Source: Acidimicrobiia bacterium
Lineage (GTDB): Bacteria; Actinomycetota; Acidimicrobiia; IMCC26256; JAGPDB01
Direction: 5' to 3'
Length of the DNA: 62,851 nt
Assembly: GCA_018057765.1 (NCBI GenBank)
Contig: JAGPDB010000010.1
Span: 1 to 62,851, forward strand
Position numbers and translations under genes: made by a program. Of the stretch, positions 6,523-62,705 are shown piece after piece. A model generated the notes under the pieces. That model saw only the letters and a program-made list of their open reading frames with translations. It had not been told where the DNA came from and made no database searches. Position 1 is the stretch's first letter, and every line of letters begins with the position of its first letter.

Positions 6523-6528
6523 TAAACT
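6523..6528 (+). promoter_or_regulatory. -10 box of prfA, leaderless type
   Basis: TAAACT lies exactly six bases before the prfA ATG, so transcription would begin at or next to the start codon. No ribosome-binding site is visible. Confidence 0.5.
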
Positions 6529-6534
6529 ATAAAA

Positions 6535-7611
6535 ATGGATTTTGATCAACTATCATCACTGAGTGGGGAACTTACATCACTCGAAGATTCTGTGTCTGCA
6601 TTATATGCGAGTGGCGATATTGATGAAGCTAATAAAATATCTAAACGCATATCTGACTTAAGACCAGTAGTAGAAGCATACGCACGATACGAGAATGCAA
6701 AAAATGAAGTATCTGGAGCTCGTGAACTTTTAGAAACTGAAAAAGATAATGATATGCGTGAATTTCTGAATGATGAAATAGAGAGTAAAAAAACTGTACT
6801 TGAAGATATTGAAGCAGAACTAAAAGAATTATTGCTACCTAAAGACCCTAATGATGGACGCAATGTAATCATTGAAATTCGTGGTGGTGAAGGTGGAGAA
6901 GAAGGCAACCTTTGGGCTAGCGACCTTTATAAAATGTATTCAAAATTTTGCGAAAGACACAATTTTAAAATCGAAATTATAGACGCAATGGAATCCGCAA
7001 ATGGTGGATATACGAATTTAACTTTTTTGGTTAAAGGTGATGACGCATGGAGCCAATTCAAATTTGAAGGCGGGCCTCATCGAGTACAGCGAGTACCTCA
7101 GACAGAGACACAAGGCAGAGTGCATACTTCTGCGGCTACAGTAGCTGTACTTCCAGAAGCCGGCGAAGTTGATATTCAGATAGACTTAAATGATGTAGAT
7201 ATAGATGTATATAGAAGTTCAGGACCTGGTGGTCAGTCTGTAAATACAACAGACTCTGCAGTACGACTTACACATAAGCCAACAGGACTAGTTGTAACTT
7301 GTCAAGATCAGAAAAGTCAGATAAAGAATAGGGAACAAGCATTCAAAGTTTTACGTGCTCGTCTACTTGCTTTTGAGCAAGAAAAAGCTGCAGCTGAATT
7401 AGGTGAAGCTCGTTCTAGTCAAGTTGGAAGTGGTGGTCGAGGTGAAAAGATTCGTACATATAATTATAAAGATAATCGCATAACTGATCACCGTATTGGA
7501 CTAACACAGTACAACTTAGACCGAGCATTAGAGGGTGATTTAGATTCTGTCGTCGACGCACTCCGCGCTTTTGAACGTTCAGAACAATTATCACAAAGTG
7601 TCACTAGTTAA
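6535..7611 (+). CDS. prfA: Peptide chain release factor 1
   Basis: Class I release factor reading UAA and UAG, 358 residues, the usual length. The stop-codon-reading tripeptide PxT is PQT at residues 188-190, which distinguishes it from RF2. The peptidyl-tRNA hydrolysis motif GGQ is at 232-234 within SSGPGGQSVNTTDSAVRLTH. The N-terminal helical region is acidic, and the C-terminal basic region after GGQ is complete. The next gene, prmC, which methylates the GGQ glutamine, starts two bases after the stop, so the pair is an operon. A -10 box six bases upstream and the lack of a ribosome-binding site suggest a leaderless mRNA. Confidence 0.97.
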   Translation: MDFDQLSSLSGELTSLEDSVSALYASGDIDEANKISKRISDLRPVVEAYARYENAKNEVSGARELLETEKDNDMREFLNDEIESKKTVLEDIEAELKELLLPKDPNDGRNVIIEIRGGEGGEEGNLWASDLYKMYSKFCERHNFKIEIIDAMESANGGYTNLTFLVKGDDAWSQFKFEGGPHRVQRVPQTETQGRVHTSAATVAVLPEAGEVDIQIDLNDVDIDVYRSSGPGGQSVNTTDSAVRLTHKPTGLVVTCQDQKSQIKNREQAFKVLRARLLAFEQEKAAAELGEARSSQVGSGGRGEKIRTYNYKDNRITDHRIGLTQYNLDRALEGDLDSVVDALRAFERSEQLSQSVTS

Positions 7612-7613
7612 AC

Positions 7614-8495
7614 GTGGTTAGTTATTCGCAATTGCAAAAAGATATTGTATCGAAACTAAAGATCATTAATAATTCTGACGACGTTCGAGATTTTGAAGCA
7701 AGGCTAATAATAGAAAATGTAACAGGTTTAAATTATTCAGAGATGATAATCAACGATCATGATATCGATATAAATATAGACAATAATATTAACTCAATTA
7801 TTTCGAAAAGAAATACAGGCAAGCCTCTGGCATATATTTTAGGTCATTCTAATTTTTATGGTTTAGAATTTAACGTTGATGATAGAGTATTAATTCCAAG
7901 GAGTGAAACTGAAGAGCTTGTAAAAAAAGCTATTGATATACTGAAAAACCAGGAATATCAACCTCAAATGGTTATAGATATAGGAACGGGGTCTGGTGCA
8001 ATTGCAGTAGCTCTTGCTTGTAATGTAAGAAATTTAGAAGTTTTAGCGATTGATATATCTAGTGATGCATTAGAACTAGCTCAAGAGAATTATAAAAGTA
8101 ATACAGGTAAAATGTATGAAAACTCGATAATTAAATTTTTAAAAAGTGATTGTTTTAATAATTTAGATCGTTCTCTATTAGAAAAATTCGATCTTATTAT
8201 TTCAAATCCTCCTTATATCGCCAAGGATGAAGAAGATACTCTAGATGATAGTGTTAAACAATATGAACCACATATCGCATTATTTGCCCATGATGAGGGA
8301 TTTGCAGTTTATGAAAAAATAATAATCGAATCAGTTAATTGGCTAAAACCAGGTGGATTTTTAATATTAGAGATTTCGCCACGTCATACAAAAAATATAA
8401 AAGATTTTATAAACAGCTGCGAATATTCTGAATTAAAAATATTCGAAGATCTTTCAAAACGTGATCGAATTTGTGTTGCAAAAATGCCTGGTTAG
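7614..8495 (+). CDS. prmC: Release factor glutamine methyltransferase PrmC (HemK)
   Basis: SAM-dependent N5-glutamine methyltransferase that modifies the GGQ glutamine of RF1 and RF2 in the cytoplasm. It has 293 residues and begins with GTG two bases after prfA. It has an N-terminal helical substrate-binding domain (about 1-95) and a Rossmann methyltransferase domain with the SAM loop DIGTGSGAIAVALA (about 122-135). The catalytic NPPY motif is at 198-201, as required for glutamine methylation. Coupling to prfA supports the assignment. Its 3' end overlaps the stop of the convergent DUF983 gene by three bases. Confidence 0.95.
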   Translation: MVSYSQLQKDIVSKLKIINNSDDVRDFEARLIIENVTGLNYSEMIINDHDIDINIDNNINSIISKRNTGKPLAYILGHSNFYGLEFNVDDRVLIPRSETEELVKKAIDILKNQEYQPQMVIDIGTGSGAIAVALACNVRNLEVLAIDISSDALELAQENYKSNTGKMYENSIIKFLKSDCFNNLDRSLLEKFDLIISNPPYIAKDEEDTLDDSVKQYEPHIALFAHDEGFAVYEKIIIESVNWLKPGGFLILEISPRHTKNIKDFINSCEYSELKIFEDLSKRDRICVAKMPG

Positions 8496-8875: not shown

Positions 8876-8919
8876 ATGGATGATTATTTTACTCTCCTAT
8901 CAGTCTAGAATGCTCATTA

Positions 8920-10137: not shown

Positions 10138-10166
10138 TTGATATAGCTGATCTACGATGTTATTAT
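10138..10166 (+). promoter_or_regulatory. Promoter of the secreted protease gene, leaderless
   Basis: TTGATA (10138-10143), a 17-base spacer and TATTAT (10161-10166) place the transcription start at the GTG codon at 10173, six bases beyond the -10 box. Confidence 0.6.
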
Positions 10167-10172
10167 AAGCTA

Positions 10173-11393
10173 GTGGGGAGAAATGCGCCAAATATACCTT
10201 ATCGTAGGCTAGCTGCTGCACTGGCAGTACTAGCTACTTCCGCTGTCGTAACGAGCTCTAAAGCTGACGTACCACCACCAGATGAAGTTTCGGCACCACT
10301 ATTAGATGCTAGAAATACATCACCTAGTTCTTTAAGTAGTGAAACTACAACATTTACAAAAGCACAATGGCGAAGTGCCACAATACCTGTACACTTCACT
10401 AAAAGTGATGGATCAATTGCATCGGGCACCGCATTTTTCTTTACAGAACCTGGTACAAATAAAATTCTTATCGGTTCAGTGGGCCATGTCGTCAATGACG
10501 AAGTGAACAATGCATTAAAACAATTAGAAAAAGAGCGTTGCAAAGAGACAGGTAAATCATCTGATTGTGTTACTTCGTCTTTCGCTTTCTCTGACTCTGT
10601 GCCAGGTACAACAACTATTGATTTAGGTCTATATTTCGGTGAGATGGATATTTCTCAATTTGTAAGAGCTAGTAAATATTTTAAAGATAATCCGACTTCA
10701 ATTACGGCAGGATCTGATGGAATTGTTAAAGATCATGATGGGTTTTTTATATCGACACCCACTGGAGAAGTCGAAGAACAGATAAAACAATTAATAAAAA
10801 GTGGGCAATTTGTGGCGCCAGAACTAGCCCCGACTGGGATATCGTCACTTAAATTCGATAACGCACGGAATAACCCTGATCCCGATTTTGATGGTGCCAC
10901 ACCTATTCAGCCTATAACTTTTACATTACCTTCGCTTGGTAAGCCAGTTGATATGAGATTCGTAAGCATTGGAGACACTCCGATGAAAGTAGTCCCGAAA
11001 GATATAATCTCAGTTGTACCAACTGAAGTAGCCAAGGAAATGCTCGATGATAATGGTGACCTATGGTCCACCGTAGATGCAACGAATAAAAAAGGCGTAG
11101 AAGTTAGTACAAGCCCATTATCATACCCAGATATAACTGGACATGGTGACAACACATTTACTGTGGCAGGCGTTGGAATAACAGGTGGGCCTATATGTCA
11201 TGGAGAAAGCGGAACACCATTCTTTCATGATGGCAAAATTGTCGGCATTTTAACTATTGCAGCAGGAAATCAGAAACCATTACAACAGCAAAGGTCTAAT
11301 ATTCCTGAGCAATTTTCTCAAGAACAATCGGCATTAGCTTTTTATGCAAAACAAACAAAATGTTCTGTTGCTGGAGGGTTATTAGCACTTTAA
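10173..11393 (+). CDS. Secreted trypsin-like serine protease
   Basis: Exported protein of 406 residues. The GTG start at 10173 coincides with the predicted transcription start. A basic N-terminus and a hydrophobic stretch ending near SSKADVP form a signal peptide. Three segments fit a chymotrypsin-fold triad: His105 in SVGHVVND, Asp150 in TIDLGLYF and Ser346 in CHGESGTPFF, followed by the KIVGILTIA strand typical of this fold. The serine motif is GESGTP rather than the common GDSGGP or GNSGGP. About 190 residues separate Asp and Ser, longer than in a minimal trypsin, so there is an insertion. Substrate unknown. I infer family membership from motifs only. Confidence 0.65.
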   Translation: MGRNAPNIPYRRLAAALAVLATSAVVTSSKADVPPPDEVSAPLLDARNTSPSSLSSETTTFTKAQWRSATIPVHFTKSDGSIASGTAFFFTEPGTNKILIGSVGHVVNDEVNNALKQLEKERCKETGKSSDCVTSSFAFSDSVPGTTTIDLGLYFGEMDISQFVRASKYFKDNPTSITAGSDGIVKDHDGFFISTPTGEVEEQIKQLIKSGQFVAPELAPTGISSLKFDNARNNPDPDFDGATPIQPITFTLPSLGKPVDMRFVSIGDTPMKVVPKDIISVVPTEVAKEMLDDNGDLWSTVDATNKKGVEVSTSPLSYPDITGHGDNTFTVAGVGITGGPICHGESGTPFFHDGKIVGILTIAAGNQKPLQQQRSNIPEQFSQEQSALAFYAKQTKCSVAGGLLAL

Positions 11394-22140: not shown

Positions 22141-22146
22141 TAGAAT
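22141..22146 (+). promoter_or_regulatory. -10 box of murA, leaderless type
   Basis: TAGAAT lies six bases before the murA ATG. There is no ribosome-binding site. Confidence 0.5.
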
Positions 22147-22152: not shown

Positions 22153-23415
22153 ATGGATCGTCTCATAGTTCACCCTTGTACCAAACCTTTAAACGGCACT
22201 GTTCGCGTATCTGGAATGACAAAGAATGCAGGACTCAAACAAATGGCCGCCTCTTTAATGGCTCGTGGGAAAACTACTTTATCTAATATGAATTCAGTTG
22301 CAGATCTATCAATAATGTGTGAACTTTTAGAGTCAATTGGTGCAAAAGTCGTAAAAGAAAATGATACATGCTATTCAATAGATTCCTCTGCTGAATTAAC
22401 GCCAGAAGCACCCTATGAGTTAGTTTCTAAAATGCGCGCATCAATAAATGTACTTTCACCATTATTGGCAACAGTTGGTAAAGCAAAAGTTTCAATGCCT
22501 GGAGGAGACAATATTGGGTTGCGAAAATTAGATATGCATTTTCGTGCCTTAGAAAAAATGGGTGTGACTATAGAATTAGAGCAAGGATATATTGAAGCAT
22601 ATGTAGACAAACTTGTTGGCGCGAGAATAGTATTAGAATTTCCCAGCGTTGGAGCAACTGAAAATATACTTTGTGCAGCTGTTTTGGCCAAAGGCGAAAC
22701 TGTAATTGAAAATGCTGCTCGCGAGCCAGAAGTAAAAGACTTATGTAACTTTTTAACAAAAATGGGAGCAAATATTGAAGGCGCTGGTACTTCAACTCTA
22801 ACTATTACTGGAGTAGATGAATTGATGCCAACATCACATTCAATAGTAGGTGATCGTATTGAAGCTGGAACGTTTTTAATGGCATGTGCAATAGTAGGTG
22901 GCGAAATTGCTTTAGAGGGTATTGCTATTTCTGACCTAGAAATGGTTGTATTAAAACTTGGAGATATGGGTATGAAAGTATCACCAACAAAAGATGGTAT
23001 ATGGGCAATGGCAGATACGCCATTGAATTGTGTTGATGTATCAACATTACCTTTTCCTGGTTTTGCAACAGACTATATGCCTTTTGCTGTGACGCTTATG
23101 AGCGTAAGTAAAGGAACAAGTATTATTACCGAAAATATTTATGACAATCGATTTGCCTTCACTACAGAGCTTGTAAGAATGGGTGCAGATATTCGTACAG
23201 AAGGTAGACACTGTGTTATTCGTGGAGTGGATCGTTTGAGTGGAGCACAGGTAAGCGCAGCTGATGTTCGTGCAGGGGCCGCTTTATGTTTGGCAGGGTT
23301 AGTTGCAGATGGTGAAACAGTGGTTCATGATACTATGCATGTGTGGCGTGGTTATCACGATTTAGCTAAAAGTCTTACAAAACTCGGTGCTGATGTAAAA
23401 TGGGAATCAAATTAA
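22153..23415 (+). CDS. murA: UDP-N-acetylglucosamine 1-carboxyvinyltransferase (MurA), Asp-type
   Basis: First committed enzyme of peptidoglycan synthesis, adding enolpyruvate from PEP to UDP-GlcNAc. It has 420 residues. Family motifs include MTKNAGLKQMAASLMARGKT (about 22-41), MRASINVLSPLLATVGKAKV, FPSVGATENIL and FPGFATDYMPF. The active-site loop reads GGDNIG, with Asp119 in place of the cysteine in the usual GGCAIG. The same Cys-to-Asp change occurs naturally in mycobacterial MurA and is known to block fosfomycin alkylation while keeping activity, so intrinsic fosfomycin resistance is likely. A general EPSP-synthase-fold relative is an alternative, but the motifs favour MurA. Confidence 0.9.
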   Translation: MDRLIVHPCTKPLNGTVRVSGMTKNAGLKQMAASLMARGKTTLSNMNSVADLSIMCELLESIGAKVVKENDTCYSIDSSAELTPEAPYELVSKMRASINVLSPLLATVGKAKVSMPGGDNIGLRKLDMHFRALEKMGVTIELEQGYIEAYVDKLVGARIVLEFPSVGATENILCAAVLAKGETVIENAAREPEVKDLCNFLTKMGANIEGAGTSTLTITGVDELMPTSHSIVGDRIEAGTFLMACAIVGGEIALEGIAISDLEMVVLKLGDMGMKVSPTKDGIWAMADTPLNCVDVSTLPFPGFATDYMPFAVTLMSVSKGTSIITENIYDNRFAFTTELVRMGADIRTEGRHCVIRGVDRLSGAQVSAADVRAGAALCLAGLVADGETVVHDTMHVWRGYHDLAKSLTKLGADVKWESN

Positions 23416-26511: not shown

Positions 26512-27267
26512 ATGATAAAACGCACGTTTGCAGATATTCCCATTTTTGATTTTGATGTGATTGATTCAACTAATAAATATTGTTTAGACAATATAAAATC
26601 GCTTGAGAATGAATTCTCTAGATCAAATAGCTGGTTAAAAGCTGTTGTAACAGCACAATTCCAAACTGATGGTAAAGGTAGGCGTGATCGTCAATGGCAA
26701 AGTGAGCCCAGCTCAGCTTTGCTTAGTAGCTTCATTATTTATCCAAAATTCTTTGGCACAATGTTAGATACTACATTAATAATAACAACTATTAATATGA
26801 TTCTTCAAGAATACTCTGTACCTTCGAGCATCAAATGGCCGAACGATATAATCATTGAAAATGGTGAAAATGAAAAAAATAATAAAATCTGTGGAGTTTT
26901 AACTCAAATAATTGATGAATATTTAATTATTGGCATTGGGTTAAATGTTGTTAGAGATGATAAAAGTACTTTAGAAAATATCTCTTATCTCGATGATTTT
27001 AAGATAAATAAATCGCCCAAGTCTTTATTAGAAGAAATAATTACAAGAGTATGTGGATTTAATGATGACACATTTATACCAAAAAATATACTTGATCAAT
27101 ATAGGAATGCTAGCTCGACAATCACAAAAAAAGTACGAATAGAAACTATTCGAGATAAATTCGAGGGCACTGCGAAAGGAATTTCCCAAAGTGGTTCAAT
27201 AATTATTGAATTAGAAGATAAAAGTTTGATTGAACTCAGTGAAGGCGATATTATTCACATTCGTTAA
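26512..27267 (+). CDS. birA: Biotin-[acetyl-CoA-carboxylase] ligase
   Basis: Enzyme of 251 residues that makes biotinyl-AMP and biotinylates the carrier lysine of acyl-CoA carboxylase. GGGGAG precedes the start. The catalytic domain has the motif TDGKGRRDRQWQSEPSSALL (about 52-71, the GRGRxGRxW loop), SIKWPNDIII for biotin binding, KICGVLTQ, and a small C-terminal SH3-like domain. There is no N-terminal helix-turn-helix, so this protein cannot act as the classical bio repressor. Its last 17 bases overlap the convergent pabB gene. Confidence 0.93.
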   Translation: MIKRTFADIPIFDFDVIDSTNKYCLDNIKSLENEFSRSNSWLKAVVTAQFQTDGKGRRDRQWQSEPSSALLSSFIIYPKFFGTMLDTTLIITTINMILQEYSVPSSIKWPNDIIIENGENEKNNKICGVLTQIIDEYLIIGIGLNVVRDDKSTLENISYLDDFKINKSPKSLLEEIITRVCGFNDDTFIPKNILDQYRNASSTITKKVRIETIRDKFEGTAKGISQSGSIIIELEDKSLIELSEGDIIHIR

Positions 27268-29086
27268 ATATTGAAATTAAATTATCGTGGAAAATTCTTT
27301 CTAATTCTAATTCTAAAATTGGCAACCCAGGTATAAATTTGTTCAAATTCGGAAAGAGTTGACTATCAATTTTGGTAATTGAGCTGACACCTCTTAATGC
27401 ATTCACCAAAATTAACTCGTCAATACATTCTAGCTCTTCTACAAAGATATCTTTTTCTATTAATGTCAATTCAGTATTGCTGAATTGTTCAAATATAATC
27501 TGTCTAAATATCCCATCAATAACATTCGTACCAAGCAAGGGAGTTAATATTTTGTTATCTTTACGAATAAATACATTTGATCTAGTTGATTCTGTGATTT
27601 TTCCAGATACAACAATTATAGATTCGTCAATGGTTCCAGTCGCCAATAGTTGACCTTGTCTCATAAGTTCTAAGTATTGTTTTCTCGGATATGTTTTTAT
27701 TACCTGAGGTGATCTAATTTCTAAATCTTCAATTGAATCGACAGAAATCCCTAATACCCGAAACTTTTCAAAACTTTCTTTAACTGTATTGCTTTGAATG
27801 CTTATTAATCCATTCATATCTATAGTTAGCTTTAATTGACCAGCGATAATATTACTTTTCTTTAAATATTCAATAATTGCTGCCTTAATTGTACTTTCGT
27901 CTATTGGAATCTCATAAAATTTAATTGAGTTAATTAGACGATTTATATGGTGGTGGTATCCAAATGCAAAATGAATATCTTTTATAAATATTGAAGTAAA
28001 TACATTTGTAGGCGTACACTTTTCTGCTTTTTCAACAAGTAGTTGAAGTCGTTTTGCTTTTAATTGTGTTTCCTTAAATTCTTCTTCAGAAATTGATCGA
28101 GATGTTATTCCTGAACCAACACCTATTGTTGTTTTGTTGTTTTGAAATTCGATTCCTCTAATCGCGACACTTAAATCACATTCATTTTTTTCTAAATCAA
28201 TCCAGCCTAAAGCTCCACAATATAAACCTCTATCATTATTTTCATAATCATCAATAACTTTTAAAACTCTTGGTTTAGGTGTACCAGTAACTGATGCTAT
28301 TGGCATAAGTTCTAAAATGCATTTTTTTATATCGAAATTATCTTCAAGCGTTCCGATAATAGAAGAATTCATTTGTACCAAACCTGGGTGCGCTGTTATC
28401 TTATGGAAATCAACAACTTTTATAGTTCCGGGCCTGCAGACTCGAGCTAGATCAGATCGCACTAAATCTACGACCATTGTGTTCTCCTCGTGGTCCTTCT
28501 CATTATTATTCAGCTCATCGTACGTTTGTGCTGTTCCTTTAATTGGTTGAGAAAGTATTTGATTATTTTTTATTGATATAAATCTTTCAGGTGATAATGA
28601 AAGATAAGAGAAACTAGGAGAGTAATGAAAAAACCTGAATTCACATTCATGATCGAATATGCTTTGTATTGCAACTTTAATAGGGTCAACTATCTTATCG
28701 ATATATAATTTGCGAGTTAAATTTATTAGAAAGTAATTTCCTCTTTCCGTATCGCCAATTATCTGGCCACATTTAGTTATAAATTCTTTATCGCTCATAT
28801 TCGTTTGCCAAATTAAATCGGTGGAGTCATCTAAATAGTTGTTTATATAATCAATATCTTTTTGTAGAGAAAAATATTGTACATCCTTCCATTTATACCA
28901 ATGGCCAGATTTTGAGTCATAACTTTGAAAGCCAGTTACGAAAGATCCTGACGGAACCTCTTCAAGATGCTTATATTCTGCTTCTATATTCGTATACAAT
29001 TGCGTAGAAGAATTTTTTTTGATTATGCAAAACTGCATATTTTCACGACTGGCTATTGATAAAGCTTTTAGAAAATCCACATCCAT
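27251..29086 (-). CDS. pabB: Fused aminodeoxychorismate synthase component I / aminodeoxychorismate lyase
   Basis: Folate-branch fusion of 611 residues. The chorismate-binding part (about 60-355) carries PIKGTA (181-186), whose Lys183 marks PabB rather than TrpE, plus VDLVRSDLARVCRPG and GVGSGITSRS. The C-terminal part (about 360-611) is a PLP class IV aminotransferase fold with the catalytic lysine at 464 (VIKTYPRKQY) and ESTRSNVF. It should convert chorismate to aminodeoxychorismate and then p-aminobenzoate and pyruvate. A glutaminase (PabA) is not nearby. TAGCAT lies six bases before ATG, so the mRNA is probably leaderless. Confidence 0.93.
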   Translation of the reverse strand: MDVDFLKALSIASRENMQFCIIKKNSSTQLYTNIEAEYKHLEEVPSGSFVTGFQSYDSKSGHWYKWKDVQYFSLQKDIDYINNYLDDSTDLIWQTNMSDKEFITKCGQIIGDTERGNYFLINLTRKLYIDKIVDPIKVAIQSIFDHECEFRFFHYSPSFSYLSLSPERFISIKNNQILSQPIKGTAQTYDELNNNEKDHEENTMVVDLVRSDLARVCRPGTIKVVDFHKITAHPGLVQMNSSIIGTLEDNFDIKKCILELMPIASVTGTPKPRVLKVIDDYENNDRGLYCGALGWIDLEKNECDLSVAIRGIEFQNNKTTIGVGSGITSRSISEEEFKETQLKAKRLQLLVEKAEKCTPTNVFTSIFIKDIHFAFGYHHHINRLINSIKFYEIPIDESTIKAAIIEYLKKSNIIAGQLKLTIDMNGLISIQSNTVKESFEKFRVLGISVDSIEDLEIRSPQVIKTYPRKQYLELMRQGQLLATGTIDESIIVVSGKITESTRSNVFIRKDNKILTPLLGTNVIDGIFRQIIFEQFSNTELTLIEKDIFVEELECIDELILVNALRGVSSITKIDSQLFPNLNKFIPGLPILELELERIFHDNLISIFNECE

Positions 29087-29092: not shown

Positions 29093-29098
29093 ATGCTA
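29093..29098 (-). promoter_or_regulatory. -10 box of the pabB fusion gene, leaderless type
   Basis: On the minus strand TAGCAT is followed by six bases and the ATG at 29086. Confidence 0.45.
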
Positions 29099-31442: not shown

Positions 31443-32300
31443 ATGACTGCTAATAAAGAATATAGTGCTGTAATCGTAGAATACAATAGTGGAGATTATC
31501 TTTTTTCTTGCATTGATTCATTGATGAATCAAACGTTATTGCCAAAAAAGATTGTTGTAGTTAATAACGGAACTAGTAGAACTACATTAACAAAACTACA
31601 AAAATATGACAGAGTACATGTAATTAACCCATCAAAAAATCTTGGATATGCAAAAGCTGCAAATTTAGGTATTGCAAATACAGAATCTGAGATCGTTGCA
31701 ACATTAAACCCAGACATAAACTTAGACCCAGATTGTGCACAAATATTAGTCGAATATCTTAAAGAGAATAATAGAGTTGCTGTAATTGGGCCTATGATTT
31801 TTCAAACAGATGGCTCAATATATCCATCTGCGCGTAAAGACCCTTCAATCAAAATTGCTATAGGTCATGCGATATTTAGTTTATTTAAAAAAAATAATAG
31901 ATTCTCAAATGAATATAGAAATTCTAATATAGAAAAAGATTTGCCAAGCAAAGTTGACTGGTTAAGTGGTGCAGCATTGTTTTTGCAAAGAAAACCATTA
32001 GATGAAGTTGGATTATGGGATGAGAGATACTTTATGTATTGCGAGGATATAGATCTTTGTAATTCTTTTAGGGAAAAAGGATATGATTGTATATACGAGC
32101 CAAGAGCAAAGATAGTTCATGCAGGTGGAATCTCTACAAGTAAAACTCCAATAAAATTACTATTTTTTCATCATAAAAGCTTATATCTTTACACAGTCAA
32201 AAAGTATCATAATAAACCTATAATTAAACCCTTGGCATTAGTATTTATTGGATTTAGATTTCCATTTGCCGTTATTAAACGTAATATTAATATAGACTAA
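31443..32300 (+). CDS. GT2 glycosyltransferase (rhamnosyltransferase-like)
   Basis: GT-A fold glycosyltransferase of 285 residues without strong membrane segments. Motifs are SAVIVEYNSGDYL at the start, NLGYAKAANLGIA, the DxD-type NPDINLDPDC (about 92-101), DWLSGAALFL, and YFMYCEDIDLC with the likely catalytic acid. This pattern matches WbbL-type rhamnosyltransferases, which fits the adjacent rfbD. The acceptor is unknown. It sits in a tight operon with neighbours within five bases on each side. Confidence 0.88.
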   Translation: MTANKEYSAVIVEYNSGDYLFSCIDSLMNQTLLPKKIVVVNNGTSRTTLTKLQKYDRVHVINPSKNLGYAKAANLGIANTESEIVATLNPDINLDPDCAQILVEYLKENNRVAVIGPMIFQTDGSIYPSARKDPSIKIAIGHAIFSLFKKNNRFSNEYRNSNIEKDLPSKVDWLSGAALFLQRKPLDEVGLWDERYFMYCEDIDLCNSFREKGYDCIYEPRAKIVHAGGISTSKTPIKLLFFHHKSLYLYTVKKYHNKPIIKPLALVFIGFRFPFAVIKRNINID

Positions 32301-35274: not shown

Positions 35275-35280
35275 AGTCTA
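35275..35280 (-). promoter_or_regulatory. -10 box of the 97-residue gene, leaderless type
   Basis: TAGACT on the minus strand lies six bases before the ATG at 35268. Confidence 0.5.
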
Positions 35281-35290: not shown

Positions 35291-35306
35291 GCTTGCAAGT
35301 GCAAGC
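35291..35306. promoter_or_regulatory. Palindromic operator candidate between divergent promoters
   Basis: GCTTGCA (35291-35297) and TGCAAGC (35300-35306) form a 7-bp inverted repeat around AG. It covers the -35 positions of both divergent leaderless promoters, which is where a dimeric repressor could control both sides. Confidence 0.5.
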
Positions 35307-35322: not shown

Positions 35323-35328
35323 TATAAT
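35323..35328 (+). promoter_or_regulatory. -10 box of the giant glycosyltransferase gene, leaderless type
   Basis: A consensus TATAAT lies six bases before the GTG start at 35335. Confidence 0.65.
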
Positions 35329-35334: not shown

Positions 35335-38301
35335 GTGAGAAGCCCCAAGTCTAAAAATAACTTCGTTGAAAAATCTGAAAAATCTGAAGAATCCGACAAA
35401 GATATTAATTTAAAAGAAAATAACTTAAGTAACGTAAAAGAACCAGAGGGTCTAGCTTGGCCAAGCGTCGTTTGTGTCGTAGTAACAAATGACCCGGGTG
35501 AGTGGTTTGATGAATCAATAAAATCAATAATGGATTCAGGCTACCCAGACCTAACCACGTTAATCTTAGATCTGAGTATAAACGATGGATTAAAAGAAAG
35601 AGTATCAAAATTAGCGCCAAAAGCATTTTTAAGAAAATTTGATGAGACTTATAATTTTGCATCAGCTATTAATGATGCTGTTAATTCTATAGAAGGTGCA
35701 ACATATGTATTGATCTGTCATGATGATGTTATTATCAACAAAGGTGCAATATCATCTATGGTACAAGAAGCATTTCGATCTAACGCATCTATGGTTGGTC
35801 CTAAGATACTTGACGGAGAAAATCCTGATTGTCTTTTAGAAGTTGGTGGAATGATCGACCGTTTTGGAGTGCCCTATAGTGGTCTTGAATTTGGAGAAGT
35901 GGACCAAAGTCAACATGATGGTGTTAGAGATGTCTTTTATGTTTCCAGCGCAGCAATGTTGGTTAGGGCAGACCTATTTCGTGCACTAGGTGGATTTGAT
36001 GAATTATGTTTTCCTGGAGCTGAAGATATAGATTTATCTTGGAGAGCGCATTTAGTTGGAGCACGAGTATTAGTTCAACCTGACGCGACAGTACTGCACC
36101 ACCAAATTAGTGAATCGATAAATTCCCAACGTAACTCTACAAAAGCAATAGTGGCACAACATAGAATGCGTGCTGTTCTTAAAAACTCTTCCAAGGTATC
36201 TTTATTTTGGATACTTCCGATATCTTTCGTTCTTCATAGCATCGAAGGGATTTTCTTTTTACTGAGACTTAATCCATATAGATCAGTTGTTTTATTTAAA
36301 GGTTGGGTTTGGAATATAAAACATCTTAGAAATCTAAGGAGATCTAGAAAAGAAGTACAACATACACGAACAGTGTCCGATAGAGTCATATCTGGCCATC
36401 AAATAGCGGGTTCTTCCAGAATTAGAAGGTTTTTTAATTCAATATCAAGACGAAGACAAAATACGCTATATAAAAATGTTGTAGCAAGTTCAAAAGTAGA
36501 TAAAAGCACTCAAACAAATTATGGCACCTTTTACACTGGCGCATTTTTCATCTATCTACTAGCTATTAGAAATTTAATTTTTGGTCAGATTGAATCCATT
36601 GGGTCTTTTGTAAAGTGGGGATCATTTAGTAATCAAATTTCTTCTTTATTACATGGTGGTTTTCCAACTGTTTCTAGTCCAAATTATTCATCATCGCTAC
36701 AAAGAATAGTTGCTCTAATCCTGACACCAATATTTGGTTTTAATGCTGCTTTCGCTCAACGTATATTTGTATTGAGCCTAATTCCAATAGCTGTGATTGG
36801 TTTACATTATTTGCTAAAAAATCTGGCTCTTTCATCAAGATCTATAATTGCTGGTTCAATATCTTATGGCTTAGTTATTTTTGGTATGGGCATCTTTGAA
36901 AATGGAAAACTCGGCGTCTTAGTGACAGCTGCTTCACTTCCATATTTAATAGACGGTATATTAAAAAATCGATCACGTAAATATGGTCTAAGCGCTGCTT
37001 CTATTATTGCATTTAATCCTGCCGCGATAATAATATTGTTAATAACTAGCTTTGCTTACCTATTGGTAGGGGTACGTAGCGATGCCCGAAGAAAAACACT
37101 AAGAACCATTACTTTCGGTTTATTTCTTTCCATTGTAATTAATCTAGGCCTAGTTTATGATTCGATAAATAGAATCGATAGATCAACATTTGGGTTTACT
37201 GAAGTCTTTACTAGTAACAACAACTATTTCTTTGGCACCGGCTTTTCTAAGAACATAATTCTTGCAATGCTTTTTGTAGGCTTAACAGCTATATTGATTT
37301 CGAAAGGAATGAAGTACTCAATACTAAAAGTAGTAGTTTTTTCTACAATATTGTCGTCATCTATAGCAATCGTTGGTATCAATATAAATGAACCAATTTT
37401 TGATAATTATAATGTTGTTCTTTTGTTCTCATTTACTTTTTCTTTATCTGTTGGGTATTGTTTAAATTCATTTTCGTCAGAGTTAACCGAAAAATCATTC
37501 GGTTTATATCATCTAATAAATGTAATAGCACTCTTTATTATCATAGGAACATTATTATTACAATTGCCAACAATAGTAAATGGAAGGTTAAATTTAAGCT
37601 CTTCCAGTTGGTCAAGCCAAATAGAAAATAAATTTCAATCACGTGTAGTCTATCTTGGAAATACTAAAAAAATAGGTTCTAATCCCTCTATGTTGCCTGG
37701 AAACAAAGGCTTTGTAATAGCGAGTAATACTGAGATCAAAACTTCAAATTCAATTATTGGTCCTAGCTCGAAATTAGATGATGACTTTAGAAAAATATAT
37801 TCCGTGATAATAAAAAATGAAACAAATCATGGTGGCTATCTATTTAGTAAAATGGGTATAGGTGTGATAGTTGTGCCAACAGCATTAAGTCCTGATTCTA
37901 AGATCTCTAAAAACGATTCTGAACTTTTGGCTGCATTCGATAGACAAATAGATTTGGTAAGAATTAAAGACAGAGATGGTTTAGTTGTATACAACAATCT
38001 AGCTCTAACTACGCAATTTAAATCTGATCAAATATCTAATCCTGTAAATATAGCGAATGAATTAATTAATCCAAACATAGATAAAATAAATAAAATTAAG
38101 TATTCAAAGCTAGGTCTAATTAATTATTTGATTATTTCACTAAATGGCTTTGTGTTATTACTCGTATTTTTGTGGCCCAGAAGAAAGGAATTGATTTCTA
38201 ATGCATATTCTTCGGTCAAGAAAATGCAGGCAAATATTAGCGAAGATACAATAGAAGAACCTGAAGGAAATGTCAAAAAAAAATTAAAGAATCAGAAATA
38301 A
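35335..38301 (+). CDS. Giant GT2 glycosyltransferase fused to a polytopic membrane domain (3' frameshift likely)
   Basis: Protein of 988 residues starting at GTG 35335. Residues about 1-45 are charged and low complexity. A GT2 domain follows (about 45-300: VVCVVVTNDPGEWFDESIKS, ICHDDVIINKGA, VSSAAMLVRADLFRALGGFD, FPGAEDIDLSWR). The remainder has about a dozen hydrophobic segments (400-800), a soluble outer part and a last helix near 920. It resembles actinobacterial membrane-anchored galactofuranosyl/rhamnosyl-type transferases. It ends at TAA just after a run of nine A (38275-38283). In the -1 frame the reading continues for about 23 more K/E-rich codons, to a TGA that overlaps the next ATG as ATGA. 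The true 3' end is therefore probably 38372. This points to a lost A, a sequencing error or ribosomal slippage. Confidence 0.85.
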   Translation: MRSPKSKNNFVEKSEKSEESDKDINLKENNLSNVKEPEGLAWPSVVCVVVTNDPGEWFDESIKSIMDSGYPDLTTLILDLSINDGLKERVSKLAPKAFLRKFDETYNFASAINDAVNSIEGATYVLICHDDVIINKGAISSMVQEAFRSNASMVGPKILDGENPDCLLEVGGMIDRFGVPYSGLEFGEVDQSQHDGVRDVFYVSSAAMLVRADLFRALGGFDELCFPGAEDIDLSWRAHLVGARVLVQPDATVLHHQISESINSQRNSTKAIVAQHRMRAVLKNSSKVSLFWILPISFVLHSIEGIFFLLRLNPYRSVVLFKGWVWNIKHLRNLRRSRKEVQHTRTVSDRVISGHQIAGSSRIRRFFNSISRRRQNTLYKNVVASSKVDKSTQTNYGTFYTGAFFIYLLAIRNLIFGQIESIGSFVKWGSFSNQISSLLHGGFPTVSSPNYSSSLQRIVALILTPIFGFNAAFAQRIFVLSLIPIAVIGLHYLLKNLALSSRSIIAGSISYGLVIFGMGIFENGKLGVLVTAASLPYLIDGILKNRSRKYGLSAASIIAFNPAAIIILLITSFAYLLVGVRSDARRKTLRTITFGLFLSIVINLGLVYDSINRIDRSTFGFTEVFTSNNNYFFGTGFSKNIILAMLFVGLTAILISKGMKYSILKVVVFSTILSSSIAIVGININEPIFDNYNVVLLFSFTFSLSVGYCLNSFSSELTEKSFGLYHLINVIALFIIIGTLLLQLPTIVNGRLNLSSSSWSSQIENKFQSRVVYLGNTKKIGSNPSMLPGNKGFVIASNTEIKTSNSIIGPSSKLDDDFRKIYSVIIKNETNHGGYLFSKMGIGVIVVPTALSPDSKISKNDSELLAAFDRQIDLVRIKDRDGLVVYNNLALTTQFKSDQISNPVNIANELINPNIDKINKIKYSKLGLINYLIISLNGFVLLLVFLWPRRKELISNAYSSVKKMQANISEDTIEEPEGNVKKKLKNQK

Positions 38302-51346: not shown

Positions 51347-51352
51347 TAAATT
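51347..51352 (+). promoter_or_regulatory. -10 box of the comF-like gene, leaderless type
   Basis: TAAATT lies six bases before the ATG at 51359. Confidence 0.4.
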
Positions 51353-51358: not shown

Positions 51359-51898
51359 ATGTCTTCATTGAATATATCTATTAATAAATCGACACTGAAT
51401 TTAAAAAATTCTTACTTAGATACACATACATGGTTTTTAGATTACAATGATGTTAAATACCTATTATGGAATGCTAAATATAGACAAGAATTTTCCATTT
51501 ATAATAAGTTTATAAAAAAAATAGCAATACAATTGACTGACTTAGATAATGTCGATTTCATCACAAATGTTCCAACATCGAAACATCACATCACTAAGCG
51601 TGGTTTTGACCATGGAGAATATTTGGGAAGAACATTTTCAAAGAATTTAATGCTGACGTATAAAAATTTATTAATACCTGTACATGATATTGATCAAGTC
51701 CATAGTAGCGGTGACATGAGGCGAAAACTGCCTAGATATATGTGTAAAAAAAATATATATAATAAAAAAATATTAATCATAGATGATATTGCTACAACTA
51801 GAACTTCACTAAATAGGTGCGCTCAAGCACTAAAAGAAAAGGGTGCAAATCGAGTTGATGCTGTGACTATTGCCTTTCGACATTTGCAACATTATTAA
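51359..51898 (+). CDS. ComF-like phosphoribosyltransferase
   Basis: PRT-type I protein of 179 residues. The PRPP-binding motif LIIDDIATTRTSLNRCAQAL (about 140-159) and TNVPTSKHHITKRGFDHGE (the KRGFxH segment of ComF) are clear. The N-terminal zinc ribbon of classical ComF is missing. Location before hpf and secA is the normal place of comF in actinobacteria. It may act in DNA uptake or nucleotide salvage, and no competence genes are visible. Confidence 0.82.
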   Translation: MSSLNISINKSTLNLKNSYLDTHTWFLDYNDVKYLLWNAKYRQEFSIYNKFIKKIAIQLTDLDNVDFITNVPTSKHHITKRGFDHGEYLGRTFSKNLMLTYKNLLIPVHDIDQVHSSGDMRRKLPRYMCKKNIYNKKILIIDDIATTRTSLNRCAQALKEKGANRVDAVTIAFRHLQHY

Positions 51899-52962: not shown

Positions 52963-52968
52963 TAACCT
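52963..52968 (+). promoter_or_regulatory. -10 box of secA, leaderless type
   Basis: TAACCT lies six bases before the GTG start of secA. Confidence 0.45.
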
Positions 52969-52974
52969 TTATGC

Positions 52975-55695
52975 GTGGCAATTCTAAAAAAAGTATTAAG
53001 TGTCGGTGAAGGCAAAAAAGTAAAAAAACTCGAGGCTGTAGTTCCTGCTGTAGCGTATTTCGAAGATTCAATGATTGCAAAAAGTGATCTTGAATTAGCA
53101 AACCAGACAATATTATTTCGTGAACGACTAGCTAAAGGTGAAACCCTCGACGATATTTTACCCGAAGCATTTGCAACGGTACGAGAAGCCGCAAAGCGTG
53201 TTTTGGGTCAGCGTCATTATGATGTACAGATAATGGGTGGTGTTGCACTTCATTACGGTTGGGTTGCCGAAATGAAAACTGGTGAAGGTAAAACTTTAGT
53301 TTCAACATTGGCAGCATACTTAAATGCACTTGCTGGTAAAGGTGTCCATATTGTTACTGTCAACGATTACTTAGCTAAACGTGATGGTATGTGGATGGGT
53401 CAAGTTCACAAATTTTTGGGATTAAGCGTAGGCATGGTTTTGCCCGATATTGATGATCCAGAAGAAAAGCGCAATGCTTATGCATGTGATATCACATATG
53501 GAACTAATAATGAATTTGGTTTTGATTATCTTCGTGACAATATGGCAATTACTAAAAATGACCAAGCCCAACGAGGACACTTTTTCTGTATTGTCGACGA
53601 AGTTGACTCAATTTTAATTGATGAATCCAGAACTCCTCTGATAATTTCTGGACCATCTAATGAATCAAATGAACTCTATGCGCAGTTTGCAAAAATAATT
53701 AAAGCCTTAGTTATAGATCGTGATTATGAAGTCGACGAAGCAAAATTTTTAGTCTCACCAACTGATGAGGGTATCAGTCGGGTTGAAGCTGCTCTTGGTA
53801 TTGATAATTTATATGAACATGTAAACCAAAATTTTGTACATCAAATGACTACTGCTATTAAAGCAAAAGAATTATATAAAAAAGGTGTCGACTATATCGT
53901 TGCCGATGGTGAAATTAAAATTGTTGATGAATTTACCGGCCGTATTCTAGAGGGTCGCAGATGGAGCGATGGTGTACACCAAGCTGTCGAAGCAAAAGAA
54001 AATGTTTCTATTCAAGAAGAAAATCAGACACTAGCAACAGTGACATTACAAAACTATTTCAAACTTTACGAGAAGATTTCAGGTATGACTGGTACTGGTG
54101 TCAGCGAAGCCGGTGAGTTCATGCACACTTATGGACTCAATGTTGTTTCTGTCCCAACTCATAAACCTAAAGCACGAGCTGATCATGCCGATTATATATA
54201 TAAAACTGAAGCAGGGAAATTTAATGCTGTAGTTAATGATTTACTTGAATGTCATAAACGTGGTCAACCAGTATTAGTCGGTACGGTATCTGTAGAAAAA
54301 TCTGAGCGACTTTCTAGAATGTTGGACAAAATAGGTGTCAAACATAGTGTATTGAATGCTAAAGAGCATACACAAGAAGGCCCAATAATTGCACAAGCTG
54401 GACGAGTTGGTTCAATTACTGTTGCTACAAATATGGCTGGTCGTGGTGTTGACATTTTGCTTGGGGGTAATCCTGAAGGATTAGCCTTACAACAATTGTT
54501 AGCTGAAGGCAAAGATCTTGAAGATGATGGTGTTAAATCAGAACTTGTAGCTTTAGAAGAAACCTATGATCAGCAATGTAAGTCTGAAGGTGATCAAGTG
54601 CGTGAACTTGGTGGTTTATATGTACTTGGTACAGAAAGACATGAATCACGACGAATAGATGACCAGTTACGCGGTCGTTCTGGACGTCAAGGTGACCCTG
54701 GTGTTTCTCGTTTTTATCTTTCGCTTGAAGATGATCTTATGCGTTTGTTTAATAATGGTGCTATGAACTGGGTAATGGATAAAGCATTTCCCGAAGATGT
54801 GCCACTTGAAGCAAAAATGGTTTCAAAAGCAATAGAGCGCGCTCAAACAACAGTTGAATCACGTAACTTTGAAATACGAAAAGATGTTTTGAAATACGAT
54901 GAGGTAATGAATGAACAGCGAAAAATCATTTATCGTCGTCGTCAACAAATAATTGATGGTGAAGATTTAAGTGATCAAGCTTATGAGATTATTGAAGAGG
55001 TTGTTTCTAGCATCGCCAGTAGCTATTGTGAATCTGAATATAGCGAAACATGGGAAATCGACGGGTTGTTAAAAGAATGTGCGACATATTATCCAGTTAC
55101 ACTTTCCCATGAAGCAATACTTCAATTAAGAAGCATCAAAGAATTAGTTGAAAGTATTGTCAATGATGCTTTAGAGCAATATAAACAAAAAGAAAGCCAA
55201 ATAGGTTTTGATACTTTAAGAAATATTGAACGTAAGGTTATGCTAGATGTTATTGATCAGCATTGGCGCGAACATTTATATGAGATGGATTACTTACGTG
55301 AAGGTATCAACCTTCGTGCTATGGGTCAGCGTGACCCACTTACAGAATGGCAACGCGAAGGTTTCGAAATGTTCGGTGTCATGATGGAGAGTATAAAATC
55401 TGACTTTGTGAGATTTGTTATGAAGTTAAATGTAGTTTCTAAAGATGAAGGTCGCCGAAAAGAGCAAGAGCTTTCATATAGCGCTCCAGAAAACCCTGTT
55501 CAAGGATCTGATGCATATGCTAATTTAAGTCTTGATCCTGCATTGGCTGCTGCTCAAAGTGGATCCATAAATCAAGGTCAAGCAAACCAGGAAAGAAGTA
55601 TACCAACACCTGTAAAAGTTGAAAAAGTCCCAGGTAGAAACGAACTTTGTTTTTGTGGGTCTGGTAAAAAATATAAACTTTGTCATGGTAGATAA
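52975..55695 (+). CDS. secA: Preprotein translocase ATPase SecA
   Basis: Motor of the Sec pathway, 906 residues, GTG start. It has the first nucleotide-binding fold with Walker A in AEMKTGEGKTLVSTL (lysine at 106), DEVDSILIDESRTPL as Walker B, the preprotein-crosslinking domain, the second ATPase half (TNMAGRGVDILLGGNPEG, GRSGRQGDPG) and the helical scaffold. A C-terminal SEC-C zinc motif is intact: Cys892, Cys894, Cys903 and His904. It would export the adhesin, protease, LCP and M23 proteins of this window. Confidence 0.98.
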   Translation: MAILKKVLSVGEGKKVKKLEAVVPAVAYFEDSMIAKSDLELANQTILFRERLAKGETLDDILPEAFATVREAAKRVLGQRHYDVQIMGGVALHYGWVAEMKTGEGKTLVSTLAAYLNALAGKGVHIVTVNDYLAKRDGMWMGQVHKFLGLSVGMVLPDIDDPEEKRNAYACDITYGTNNEFGFDYLRDNMAITKNDQAQRGHFFCIVDEVDSILIDESRTPLIISGPSNESNELYAQFAKIIKALVIDRDYEVDEAKFLVSPTDEGISRVEAALGIDNLYEHVNQNFVHQMTTAIKAKELYKKGVDYIVADGEIKIVDEFTGRILEGRRWSDGVHQAVEAKENVSIQEENQTLATVTLQNYFKLYEKISGMTGTGVSEAGEFMHTYGLNVVSVPTHKPKARADHADYIYKTEAGKFNAVVNDLLECHKRGQPVLVGTVSVEKSERLSRMLDKIGVKHSVLNAKEHTQEGPIIAQAGRVGSITVATNMAGRGVDILLGGNPEGLALQQLLAEGKDLEDDGVKSELVALEETYDQQCKSEGDQVRELGGLYVLGTERHESRRIDDQLRGRSGRQGDPGVSRFYLSLEDDLMRLFNNGAMNWVMDKAFPEDVPLEAKMVSKAIERAQTTVESRNFEIRKDVLKYDEVMNEQRKIIYRRRQQIIDGEDLSDQAYEIIEEVVSSIASSYCESEYSETWEIDGLLKECATYYPVTLSHEAILQLRSIKELVESIVNDALEQYKQKESQIGFDTLRNIERKVMLDVIDQHWREHLYEMDYLREGINLRAMGQRDPLTEWQREGFEMFGVMMESIKSDFVRFVMKLNVVSKDEGRRKEQELSYSAPENPVQGSDAYANLSLDPALAAAQSGSINQGQANQERSIPTPVKVEKVPGRNELCFCGSGKKYKLCHGR

Positions 55696-55713: not shown

Positions 55714-55719
55714 TATATT
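55714..55719 (+). promoter_or_regulatory. -10 box of prfB, leaderless type
   Basis: TATATT lies six bases before the ATG of prfB. Confidence 0.45.
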
Positions 55720-55725: not shown

Positions 55726-56853
55726 ATGAGAGATTTCACTAACCAGATATCTGATTTACGTCGCCGTGTTAATGAAGCAAATTTTTATTTAAAAATTGAT
55801 CTTGCATTAGAAGAAGTAAAAGAATTAAATATAATTGCGTCTGATTCAAAATTGTGGGATGACCCTGAAAATGCGAAAAAAGTTAATTCTCAATTAGCTG
55901 GTTTTAATGATGATATTGAACTAGTCAAAAACTTAGAAAGTAAATTGAGCGATATTGCTACTTTACATGAAATGATGCGTGAAGCAAAAGATGACTCTTT
56001 GGAACCTGAAATTGATATAAACATAACTGAACTAGCGAAGCAATTGGATTCAGTTGAATTAAGGTCGCTATTCATAGGTGAAAATGACGAACGTGATGCA
56101 ATATGTTCAATAAATTCAGGAGCTGGAGGAACTGAAGCCTGTGATTGGGCAGATATGCTGTTCCGAATGTATTCGCGTTGGTGTGAACGAAAAGGTTTTG
56201 AACTTAGTATCGATGATCTATCCCAGGGAGAAGAAGTTGGTATTTCTTCAATATCCTTTACAATAAAAGGTAAATATGCATATGGCATGTTAAGCGGAGA
56301 ATCAGGTGTCCACCGTTTGGTGAGAATATCTCCATTTGATTCTCAATCAAGAAGACATACATCATTCGCTTCAATGGAAATTGTGCCGGCACTAGAAGAG
56401 TCACAAGTTATAGAGATCGATGAATCAGAATTGCGTGTTGATACATATCGTTCTTCGGGTGCTGGTGGACAACATGTAAACAAAACCGATTCTGCAGTTC
56501 GATTGACACACATACCATCAGGGATAGTTGTCCAGTGTCAAAACCAGAGAAGCCAGATCCAAAATAAAGCTAGAGCAATGCAAATATTGAGCGCTAAATT
56601 AGCTGAAAAACAACGTATTGAAAGACTAGAAGAAGTAGCTAAACTAGCAGGAACTAAAATGGAAGTTGGATGGGGAAGCCAAATACGTAGTTACGTACTA
56701 GCACCATACCAGCTCGTACGTGATGAACGTTCACAAGTAATTGATAATCAAGAAAAATCAATCTGTGAGACTGGAAATATTATTAATGTCCTAGATGGCG
56801 ATATAGATCAATTTATTTCAGCGTATCTACAGTACAGACGTACACAATCGTAA
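55726..56853 (+). CDS. prfB: Peptide chain release factor 2
   Basis: Release factor for UGA and UAA, 375 residues. SPF at 202-204 is the stop-recognition tripeptide of RF2, and GGQ is at 247-249. The reading frame is continuous from ATG 55726: no internal UGA with a shift site is present, unlike E. coli prfB. The gene sits 30 bases after secA and before ftsE, the standard actinobacterial order. Confidence 0.97.
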   Translation: MRDFTNQISDLRRRVNEANFYLKIDLALEEVKELNIIASDSKLWDDPENAKKVNSQLAGFNDDIELVKNLESKLSDIATLHEMMREAKDDSLEPEIDINITELAKQLDSVELRSLFIGENDERDAICSINSGAGGTEACDWADMLFRMYSRWCERKGFELSIDDLSQGEEVGISSISFTIKGKYAYGMLSGESGVHRLVRISPFDSQSRRHTSFASMEIVPALEESQVIEIDESELRVDTYRSSGAGGQHVNKTDSAVRLTHIPSGIVVQCQNQRSQIQNKARAMQILSAKLAEKQRIERLEEVAKLAGTKMEVGWGSQIRSYVLAPYQLVRDERSQVIDNQEKSICETGNIINVLDGDIDQFISAYLQYRRTQS

Positions 56854-59988: not shown

Positions 59989-60018
59989 AAAAATCGACAT
60001 GCCCTAAAGCATGTCGAT
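59985..60018 (-). terminator. Terminator of the peroxiredoxin gene, also usable on the plus strand
   Basis: Perfect 10-bp stem (ATCGACATGC at 59993-60002, GCATGTCGAT at 60009-60018) with a 6-base loop. On the minus strand it is followed by seven T, so it ends the peroxiredoxin gene. The plus-strand tail is weaker. Confidence 0.85.
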
Positions 60019-60044
60019 ATTAAATTTAATTAATTTTTTACTTA

Positions 60045-60695: not shown

Positions 60696-60851
60696 TTATC
60701 TTTCCTTTACTTTAATTTTTATTACATATGTCAGTTACAGCCTAGATCTTTTAGTTCTTAAAGTAAAATAGTTGTTAAATGTGATACTTTAATCCAAATT
60801 GAATAAATTTCTTTTTCTTGCATTTGACACAGGGTACTAATTTCGAGAAGA

Positions 60852-61280: not shown

Positions 61281-61416
61281 TTTTGGCCCATTGTCGGCAT
61301 TTGATATTTCTCCAGCGCTCCGCAATCGTTCCGAAATAAAAATACCTACAAACTCGTATTAACTACTTAGAAGCATAATTGATGCTATTTCAATTTAAAT
61401 GAAGGTTCAGTTGATT

Positions 61417-62094
61417 TTATTCTTTAGGTGCAATAGCTTCTTTTAATACTTCGATAACATGTTCGCGTCTTGTCGCTAGAGCTTTAATGCTTAGAGGGTC
61501 ACCGTCTATAACTTGTGAGACGAGTGAAGAGTCGGACAAATATGAAAAAGCAGCACCATATCCTGTGATAAGCAACTGTCGGGCATCGTATTTTTTTAGA
61601 CGCCCATGTTTCATTTCGTTTTCTAAGAATTTAGCACCACGATCGATTAATGGTTTTAGAGCTGTGCCGAGTTCACTCGAGAAAAGCGAATCTGGATCTA
61701 ATGCTTCTCTTCTAGCGATCTTAACGAAGTATGGATGTTGTTCGAAAAAAGTAAAGGCAGCACGTAAGAGTTGTTCAACTTGGTCCCAGCCATGAACTTC
61801 TTTTCCAGTCGCATCGCTCATCAAAAAGATCCAACCTTTAAATTCATTCAAAATAACTTCACGATACAAAAGTTCTTTTGAAGAAAAGTGATACATGATC
61901 GATGGCTTTTTAATTCCTACGTCGTTAGCGATATCATTTAATGAGGTTGAATCATAACCGTGATCTGAAAATCGTTTTAATGCCGCATAAAGTATTTGAT
62001 ATTTTGTGTCTGGTTGGACGGTTGAATTTCCTTTGTCTGTAATATTTATAACTTTTGCAATGTTTGCATCTTCTTTTTTATTTGCTTTCGACAT
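61417..62094 (-). CDS. TetR-family transcriptional regulator
   Basis: Repressor-type protein of 225 residues. The N-terminal helix-turn-helix (about 26-72) has KYQILYAALKRFSDHGYDST, SLNDIANDVGIKKPSIMYHF and SSKELLYREVI, the classic TetR pattern. The C-terminal ligand domain is helical, with RRKALDP-like conserved residues replaced by ARREALDPDSLF. TAGACT lies six bases before ATG (leaderless). The gene starts next to the stop of the membrane-protein gene. Its ligand and targets are unknown; an auto-regulated site would be in the region just upstream of 62094. Confidence 0.9.
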   Translation of the reverse strand: MSKANKKEDANIAKVINITDKGNSTVQPDTKYQILYAALKRFSDHGYDSTSLNDIANDVGIKKPSIMYHFSSKELLYREVILNEFKGWIFLMSDATGKEVHGWDQVEQLLRAAFTFFEQHPYFVKIARREALDPDSLFSSELGTALKPLIDRGAKFLENEMKHGRLKKYDARQLLITGYGAAFSYLSDSSLVSQVIDGDPLSIKALATRREHVIEVLKEAIAPKE

Positions 62095-62096
62095 AA

Positions 62097-62705
62097 TTAC
62101 AGTCTAACCGCGAATAACTTTCTATGGTAAATGCATATAAGAGTGACGATACAATTCGAAATTATATATATTTGAAATATCGAATCATTACTTATAGGAA
62201 ATGCCAATAGTCCGAGTAAAGCAGCCAATATGCTTAATGTATATACCCAGTGAGATTCAGTATCTGGGAATCGCCAAGTTTTTAAGAAAACAGGTAGGTA
62301 GGCAACTAAATTCGCCGTAATGGATAGCCAAATTCCTAAATATGCATTACCTGTAAGTTGCCAAGCTATTACACCACAAATTGCTACGACAAGACAGCTC
62401 CAATCAAATAATGAGGTACCTCCCATGCCCCTATGGATAGAAAGTATAAAAACAATTAATGCAAATATGAGATCGATACCAGCAAAAATCCGTGCACCTA
62501 AATTTCCTTGCGCCGCAATAATGCTCAAGAAATTGAGTGAATGAACGAAAGTTAATATGAACCTGGTTGTTCGATGTGGTTTGGATGTTCCACGAATTAT
62601 ACTTACGACATAAGAGCAAGGAGCAAGCAATGCAACTAATGTGCTCGAAATTAATAAAAAATTATGCATGTTTGATTCTATTACGTTTGACAACCATTCA
62701 TTCAT
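62097..62705 (-). CDS. Seven-helix membrane protein with internal pseudo-repeat
   Basis: Protein of 202 residues, about 60% hydrophobic, with roughly seven membrane segments. Two halves look alike: the first has CSYVVSIIRGTSKPHRTTRF followed by HSLNFLSIIAA, and the second NLVAYLPVFLKTWRFPDTES followed by YTLSILAALLG. This duplicated V-x-x-xP/x-W/R-x pattern is typical of SWEET/PQ-loop-type small transporters, but I cannot confirm that family. It is transcribed towards tetR with three bases between, so they may form a two-gene operon. Confidence 0.65.
   Translation of the reverse strand: MNEWLSNVIESNMHNFLLISSTLVALLAPCSYVVSIIRGTSKPHRTTRFILTFVHSLNFLSIIAAQGNLGARIFAGIDLIFALIVFILSIHRGMGGTSLFDWSCLVVAICGVIAWQLTGNAYLGIWLSITANLVAYLPVFLKTWRFPDTESHWVYTLSILAALLGLLAFPISNDSIFQIYIISNCIVTLICIYHRKLFAVRL
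62101..62106 (-). promoter_or_regulatory. -10 box of the tetR gene, leaderless type
   Basis: On the minus strand TAGACT is followed by six bases and the ATG at 62094. It overlaps the last codons of the upstream gene. Confidence 0.45.

Follow-up and report, generated by a model that had tools for sequence, protein, structure and literature searches.

The DNA analysed here, called the window throughout, is contig JAGPDB010000010.1 (62,851 nucleotides), one of the 51 contigs of assembly GCA_018057765.1 from an Acidimicrobiia bacterium (1.76 Mb, 1,759,823 bases, 97% complete), in which a hexamer of the form TANNNT recurs six bases before start codons. A preliminary description of this DNA had named ten such genes and read them as sources of leaderless mRNAs. 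All ten boxes have the sequence, strand and position given there, and each lies exactly six bases 5' of an ATG or GTG.

Boxed genes in the window

On the plus strand, TAAACT (6523-6528) precedes the ATG of prfA at 6535 (NCBIfam TIGR00019), TAGAAT (22141-22146) the ATG of murA at 22153 (TIGR01072), TAACCT (52963-52968) the GTG of secA at 52975 (TIGR00963) and TATATT (55714-55719) the ATG of prfB at 55726 (TIGR00020). TATAAT (35323-35328) stands before the GTG at 35335 of a gene for a 988-amino-acid protein with a family 2 glycosyltransferase domain (PF00535), and TAAATT (51347-51352) before the ATG at 51359 of a gene encoding a ComF-like phosphoribosyltransferase (PF00156; the match to TIGR00201 is below the cut-off). 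TATTAT (10161-10166) precedes the GTG at 10173 of a gene (10173-11393) for a 406-amino-acid protein, which matched no NCBIfam or Pfam family at E ≤ 0.001, and its earlier label as a secreted protease is unverified. On the minus strand, TAGCAT (29093-29098) lies before the ATG at 29086 of a pabB-pabC type fusion (PF00425 and PF01063), TAGACT (35275-35280) before the ATG at 35268 of a gene for a 97-amino-acid protein, again without an NCBIfam or Pfam family at E ≤ 0.001, and a second TAGACT (62101-62106) before the ATG at 62094 of a gene for a TetR-family regulator (PF00440). An eleventh box, TAGACT on the plus strand (32293-32298), was missing from the earlier list; it is located six bases before the ATG at 32305 of a gene with a nucleotidyl transferase domain (PF00483), overlaps the stop codon of the preceding gene and may be fortuitous.

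Some of these loci show further features. The pabB fusion (27251-29086, minus strand) combines chorismate-binding and aminotransferase IV domains in one gene; among the matches listed, relatives match either half, and the same-genus genomes G001 and G002 match weakly. Between the divergent boxed genes for the 97-amino-acid protein and the large glycosyltransferase lies a perfect inverted repeat, GCTTGCA-AG-TGCAAGC (35291-35306; 0 of 100 shuffles), which may be an operator. Another perfect inverted repeat, with 12-base arms (62716-62727 and 62752-62763), is situated upstream of the minus-strand gene starting at 62705, the neighbour of the TetR-family gene.

Position of the box across the genome

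For the genome-wide analysis we used the window and 40 stretches of 20 kb, which together cover 862,851 of the 1,759,823 bases (49% of the genome, with a GC content of 35.5%). Gene starts were chosen by our own caller from coding score and start codon, and the upstream motif was not used. Offsets are given for the first T of the box, so that -12 denotes a spacer of six bases to the start codon, -13 a spacer of seven and -14 a spacer of eight. In the window, 10 of the 51 called starts are boxed at -12, where the other offsets average 1.52 each (Poisson P = 4.6 × 10^-6); these ten include the gene at 32305, and the comF-like gene at 51359 was not called.

The same position stands out in the whole sample, where TANNNT occurs at -12 in 138 of 751 starts against a background of 25.6 per other offset. 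The neighbouring offsets gave 26 (-13), 39 (-14), 26 (-15) and 23 (-11) matches, and shuffled upstream sequences gave 26.8 ± 5.3 at -12 with a maximum of 41 in 200 shuffles. An earlier run with a longer margin yielded nearly the same result (137 of 745 starts at -12, 25.9 ± 5.8 at other offsets). At internal in-frame start codons the box is found at -12 in 80 of 8,822 cases, a figure that is depressed by codon phase. Thus, the genome-wide peak of TANNNT at -12 to -7, which the preliminary description had proposed to look for, is present on about half of the genome. Its remark that several other genes carry the box seven or eight bases away finds weak support as a general trend: the plain motif is at background at -13 and slightly increased at -14, and a stricter core of the motif gave 18, 24 and 20 matches at -13, -14 and -15 against a background of 9.1. 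Summed over -15 to -11, the excess amounts to 16.5% of genes, slightly under the approximately 20% published for Actinomycetota. It seems that about one in seven genes carries a box placed for transcription from the start codon.

Such boxes might be chance matches in AT-rich DNA that were noticed selectively. Indeed, the rate of matches at any one offset is 3.4% of starts, near the 1/27 (3.7%) assumed in the preliminary description, and chance alone would produce about 25 of the 138 boxes; therefore, two or so of the eleven boxes in the window may be fortuitous. However, among the 700 starts from the rest of the sample 128 have the box where 24.3 are expected (Poisson P = 2 × 10^-49), and the offsets -13 and -11 are at background. 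These counts refute chance as an account of the whole class and leave it with next to no probability, although individual genes may still owe their box to it.

A promoter-like signal and its conservation

The context of the box resembles that of a promoter. A Shine-Dalgarno-like motif, defined as AGGA, GGAG, GAGG or AGGT, precedes only 10 of the 138 boxed genes but 247 of the 613 unboxed genes (Fisher P = 6 × 10^-16); before internal start codons its frequency is 12%. The 3' end of the 16S rRNA reads CACCTCC, and initiation by a Shine-Dalgarno sequence is therefore also available to this bacterium. The box is present at 53 of 188 divergent genes but at 2 of 93 overlapping same-strand genes (P = 1.4 × 10^-8), the latter number being equal to the background (2.0). 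Given its enrichment at divergent genes, its background level in overlapping genes and the rarity of Shine-Dalgarno-like motifs next to it, we conclude that the box behaves like a putative promoter element. The commonest hexamers at -12 are TAGAAT (28), TAAAAT (13), TATAAT (12) and TAGACT (9; n = 137), and TTG starts, which account for 25 of the 613 unboxed genes, are absent from the 138 boxed ones.

A genome search for relatives returned two members of the same genus (G001 and G002) and others from the same order and class; six other relatives were also included in the comparisons. In the genus, comprising the source genome (G000) and these two, a pyrimidine occupies -1 in 98 of 170 boxed and 315 of 697 unboxed genes (P = 0.005). 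In the six other relatives, the corresponding numbers are 34 of 45 at a spacer of six and 37 of 51 at a spacer of seven, compared to 356 of 742. This preference for a pyrimidine before the start codon fits transcription that initiates at the purine of the start codon.

We also considered that the box could be a signal in the mRNA leader, e.g. an A/U-rich site for the ribosome or protein S1, that acts at a fixed distance without any promoter. Both the fixed distance and the exclusion of Shine-Dalgarno-like motifs would fit such a translation signal as well. However, overlapping same-strand genes, which have to be translated but can do without a separate promoter, carry the box at background level, the hexamers look like a -10 element, the pyrimidine preference points to a transcription start, and the secA box of relatives is found at spacers from 6 to 12. 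We therefore regard a leader signal as very improbable.

As to function, we drew 40 of the 99 genes with a strict-core box outside the window at random. This sample covers boxed genes only and carries no claim of enrichment. A family was assigned to 13 of them at E ≤ 1e-30, namely alanine dehydrogenase, methylmalonyl-CoA decarboxylase alpha type, ABC ATPase, xseA, gatB, cysteine desulfurase, dapB, agmatinase, ispG, folD, dxr, radA and dnaX, with some of these matches falling below the family's own cut-off; the remaining 27 had no family at this threshold.

Boxes are shared with G002, for which we obtained 82 reciprocal best pairs; in 44 of these the starts agree. Of the 12 boxed orthologues 8 retain the box at -12, and it occurs in 1 of the 32 unboxed ones (P = 2 × 10^-5), while at control offsets 5 of 44 TANNNT matches are kept. 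For secA, prfA and prfB we extended the comparison to a larger set of relatives, taking as start the in-frame start codon closest to the aligned first residue. Of the secA matches, the best 80 were kept; all of these carry actinobacterial titles (57-66% identity), and about half of them belong to Acidimicrobiia or to groups that we place there (Microthrix, Ilumatobacter). The host is taken as an Acidimicrobiia-type actinobacterium with an unusually low GC content. The records L070, L080, L085, L090 and L120 are titled Bifidobacterium breve; their secA is 59-61% identical, and the titles are probably wrong, since these records rank between Acidimicrobiia records.

A TANNNT box at a spacer of 5 to 12 is present before secA in 78 of the 80 relatives (control windows 0.8%), with spacers of 6 (1), 7 (12), 8 (6), 9 (22), 10 (32), 11 (4) and 12 (1). 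Before prfA it is present in 22 of 28 relatives (control 1.2%; 1 of 29 loci was dropped because it had no start codon), most often at a spacer of seven, and prfA of G002 has the box TAGAAT at a spacer of six. Since the boxes are kept in this way, the putative promoters beside prfA and secA are considered old. In contrast, prfB is boxed in 5 of 72 relatives (control 2.3%; 8 of 80 loci had no usable start), which does not support it as an old leaderless gene, and its box is best regarded as recent or fortuitous. The genes of the earlier list are therefore not equally secure: many relatives back prfA and secA, but not prfB. Protein-level relatives were also identified for murA and the pabB fusion. 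The secA start codon itself is ATG in 75 of the 80 relatives; in the window, an out-of-frame ATG lies four bases before the GTG, just 3' of the box (52971-52977).

Spacing register and interpretation

Of the boxes in excess from -15 to -11, the genus (981 starts) has 83% at exactly -12 (bootstrap 73-93%), which indicates one register. In the six other relatives (872 starts), this share is 35% (27-44%), with 45, 51 and 24 boxes at -12, -13 and -14, respectively; the stricter core yields 72% for the genus and 27% for the six relatives. In small samples the strict spacing had looked like an effect of GC content, but this was rejected in a survey of 60 Actinomycetota genomes, where enrichment at spacer 6 relative to spacer 7 showed no correlation with a proxy of AT content (Spearman rho = 0.04, P = 0.73), in a test that is coarse because every ATG was counted, whether a gene start or not. 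In the same survey 41 genomes lean to seven and 19 to six, and the source genome ranks third for six; pattern counts from five further genomes do not enter these results. Since the correlation is absent, the register seems to differ between lineages. Tentatively, and with slightly less than even confidence, we propose that the distance between box and start codon is specific to the lineage, locked at six in this genus, ranging from six to eight in related Acidimicrobiia and leaning to seven in most of the sampled Actinomycetota; start-site selection by RNA polymerase would have shifted by a base between lineages, and the leaderless genes, prfA and secA included, would have followed. The strict six-base register is the only part of our results that might surprise a specialist.

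The peak at -12, the exclusion of Shine-Dalgarno-like motifs, the depletion in overlapping genes and the conservation of the box support the interpretation of the preliminary description that these genes are transcribed into leaderless mRNAs. With a probability of about 93%, the boxes are -10 elements of the sigma-70 type that give rise to leaderless or near-leaderless mRNAs, a figure that covers both kinds of transcript. The RNA polymerase of Escherichia coli prefers to initiate about seven bases below the -10 element. Accordingly placed, a box acting as the -10 element of a housekeeping promoter would let the polymerase initiate about seven bases below its last T, i.e. at the first base of the start codon, the mRNA would have no leader or a few bases at most, and ribosomes would engage the 5'-terminal AUG or GUG without a Shine-Dalgarno sequence. 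From sequence, we infer both where transcription starts and that translation proceeds without a leader.

Within this interpretation, the boxes could be real -10 elements whose transcripts mostly carry leaders of one to five bases. This variant is a subset of the above, so that its probability is not to be added. It is favoured by the small excesses of the stricter core at -13 to -15 and by the secA spacers of relatives, but the concentration of the genus excess at exactly -12 stands against it, and we consider it unlikely.

Several observations weigh against transcription from the start codon as a general explanation. The sole boxed gene among the 18 pairs with agreeing starts in G001 (50 pairs in total) is not boxed at -12 there, and in two of the six other relatives the excess is small (5.4% in G010, 4.5% in G057). 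The secA spacers of relatives are mostly 9-10, so a leader of a few bases is possible there, and boxes at a spacer of eight in relatives show no pyrimidine preference at -1 (13 of 24). The -35 region is weak, the mean match to TTGACA being 1.99 of 6 at -30 (the maximum) and 1.97 at -36 compared to a background of 1.69. Moreover, 19 of 142 same-strand genes that are 0-24 bases apart are boxed, and therefore operon-internal promoters or wrong operon guesses occur. Finally, the gene caller is unbenchmarked.

For annotation, these results indicate that a leaderless model should be used to call gene starts in this AT-rich lineage of uncultured actinobacteria. The putative promoters of prfA and secA, which are found class-wide at differing spacings, form a natural series for studying the co-evolution of start-site selection and leader length.

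Zheng et al. (2011; PMC3160421) define TA-led genes by a TANNNT whose first T is placed around 12 bases ahead of the start codon and predict them in 86 of 89 genomes of actinobacteria (about 20% of genes); in their data, the TA-led share tends to be smaller in genomes with a larger share of operon-distal genes. Box and position are the same here, and the box is likewise rare in overlapping same-strand genes, though not absolutely so in view of the closely spaced pairs mentioned above (19 of 142). Their low-GC examples are Firmicutes with TAtAAT, some with a TG peak, whereas the genome studied here favours TA(G/A)A(A/C)T without a clear TG peak; the word Acidimicrobium is absent from the main text of that paper. 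PMC10783764 lists Acidimicrobiia with 45% in a table of Shine-Dalgarno and anti-Shine-Dalgarno sequences by class. In a literature search, with most subscription journals outside its reach, the words leaderless and Acidimicrobi- occurred together in that paper and in one on sterol degradation; the listings of other searches showed nothing about shifts in spacer length or about leaderless genes of this lineage. In Mycobacterium tuberculosis, 22% of the genes expressed in exponential phase are leaderless (Cortes et al. 2013; PMC3898074). The -10 motif TANNNT and the lack of a conserved -35 motif are shared with our case, but the M. tuberculosis set is based on mapped 5' ends, whereas ours is based on sequence. 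In Deinococcus radiodurans, nearly one third of the genes are preceded by TANNNT at a distance of about 6-7 bases; the motif is read as the -10 element of leaderless mRNAs, with its promoter function tested according to the section headings (Zhong et al. 2025; PMC12340547); Deinococcus-Thermus is another phylum, and TACACT is the commonest hexamer there compared to TAGAAT here. Since the host is an actinobacterium, the result is expected for its phylum, for which the pattern is already described in kind, and the lineage studied here represents a new low-GC case.

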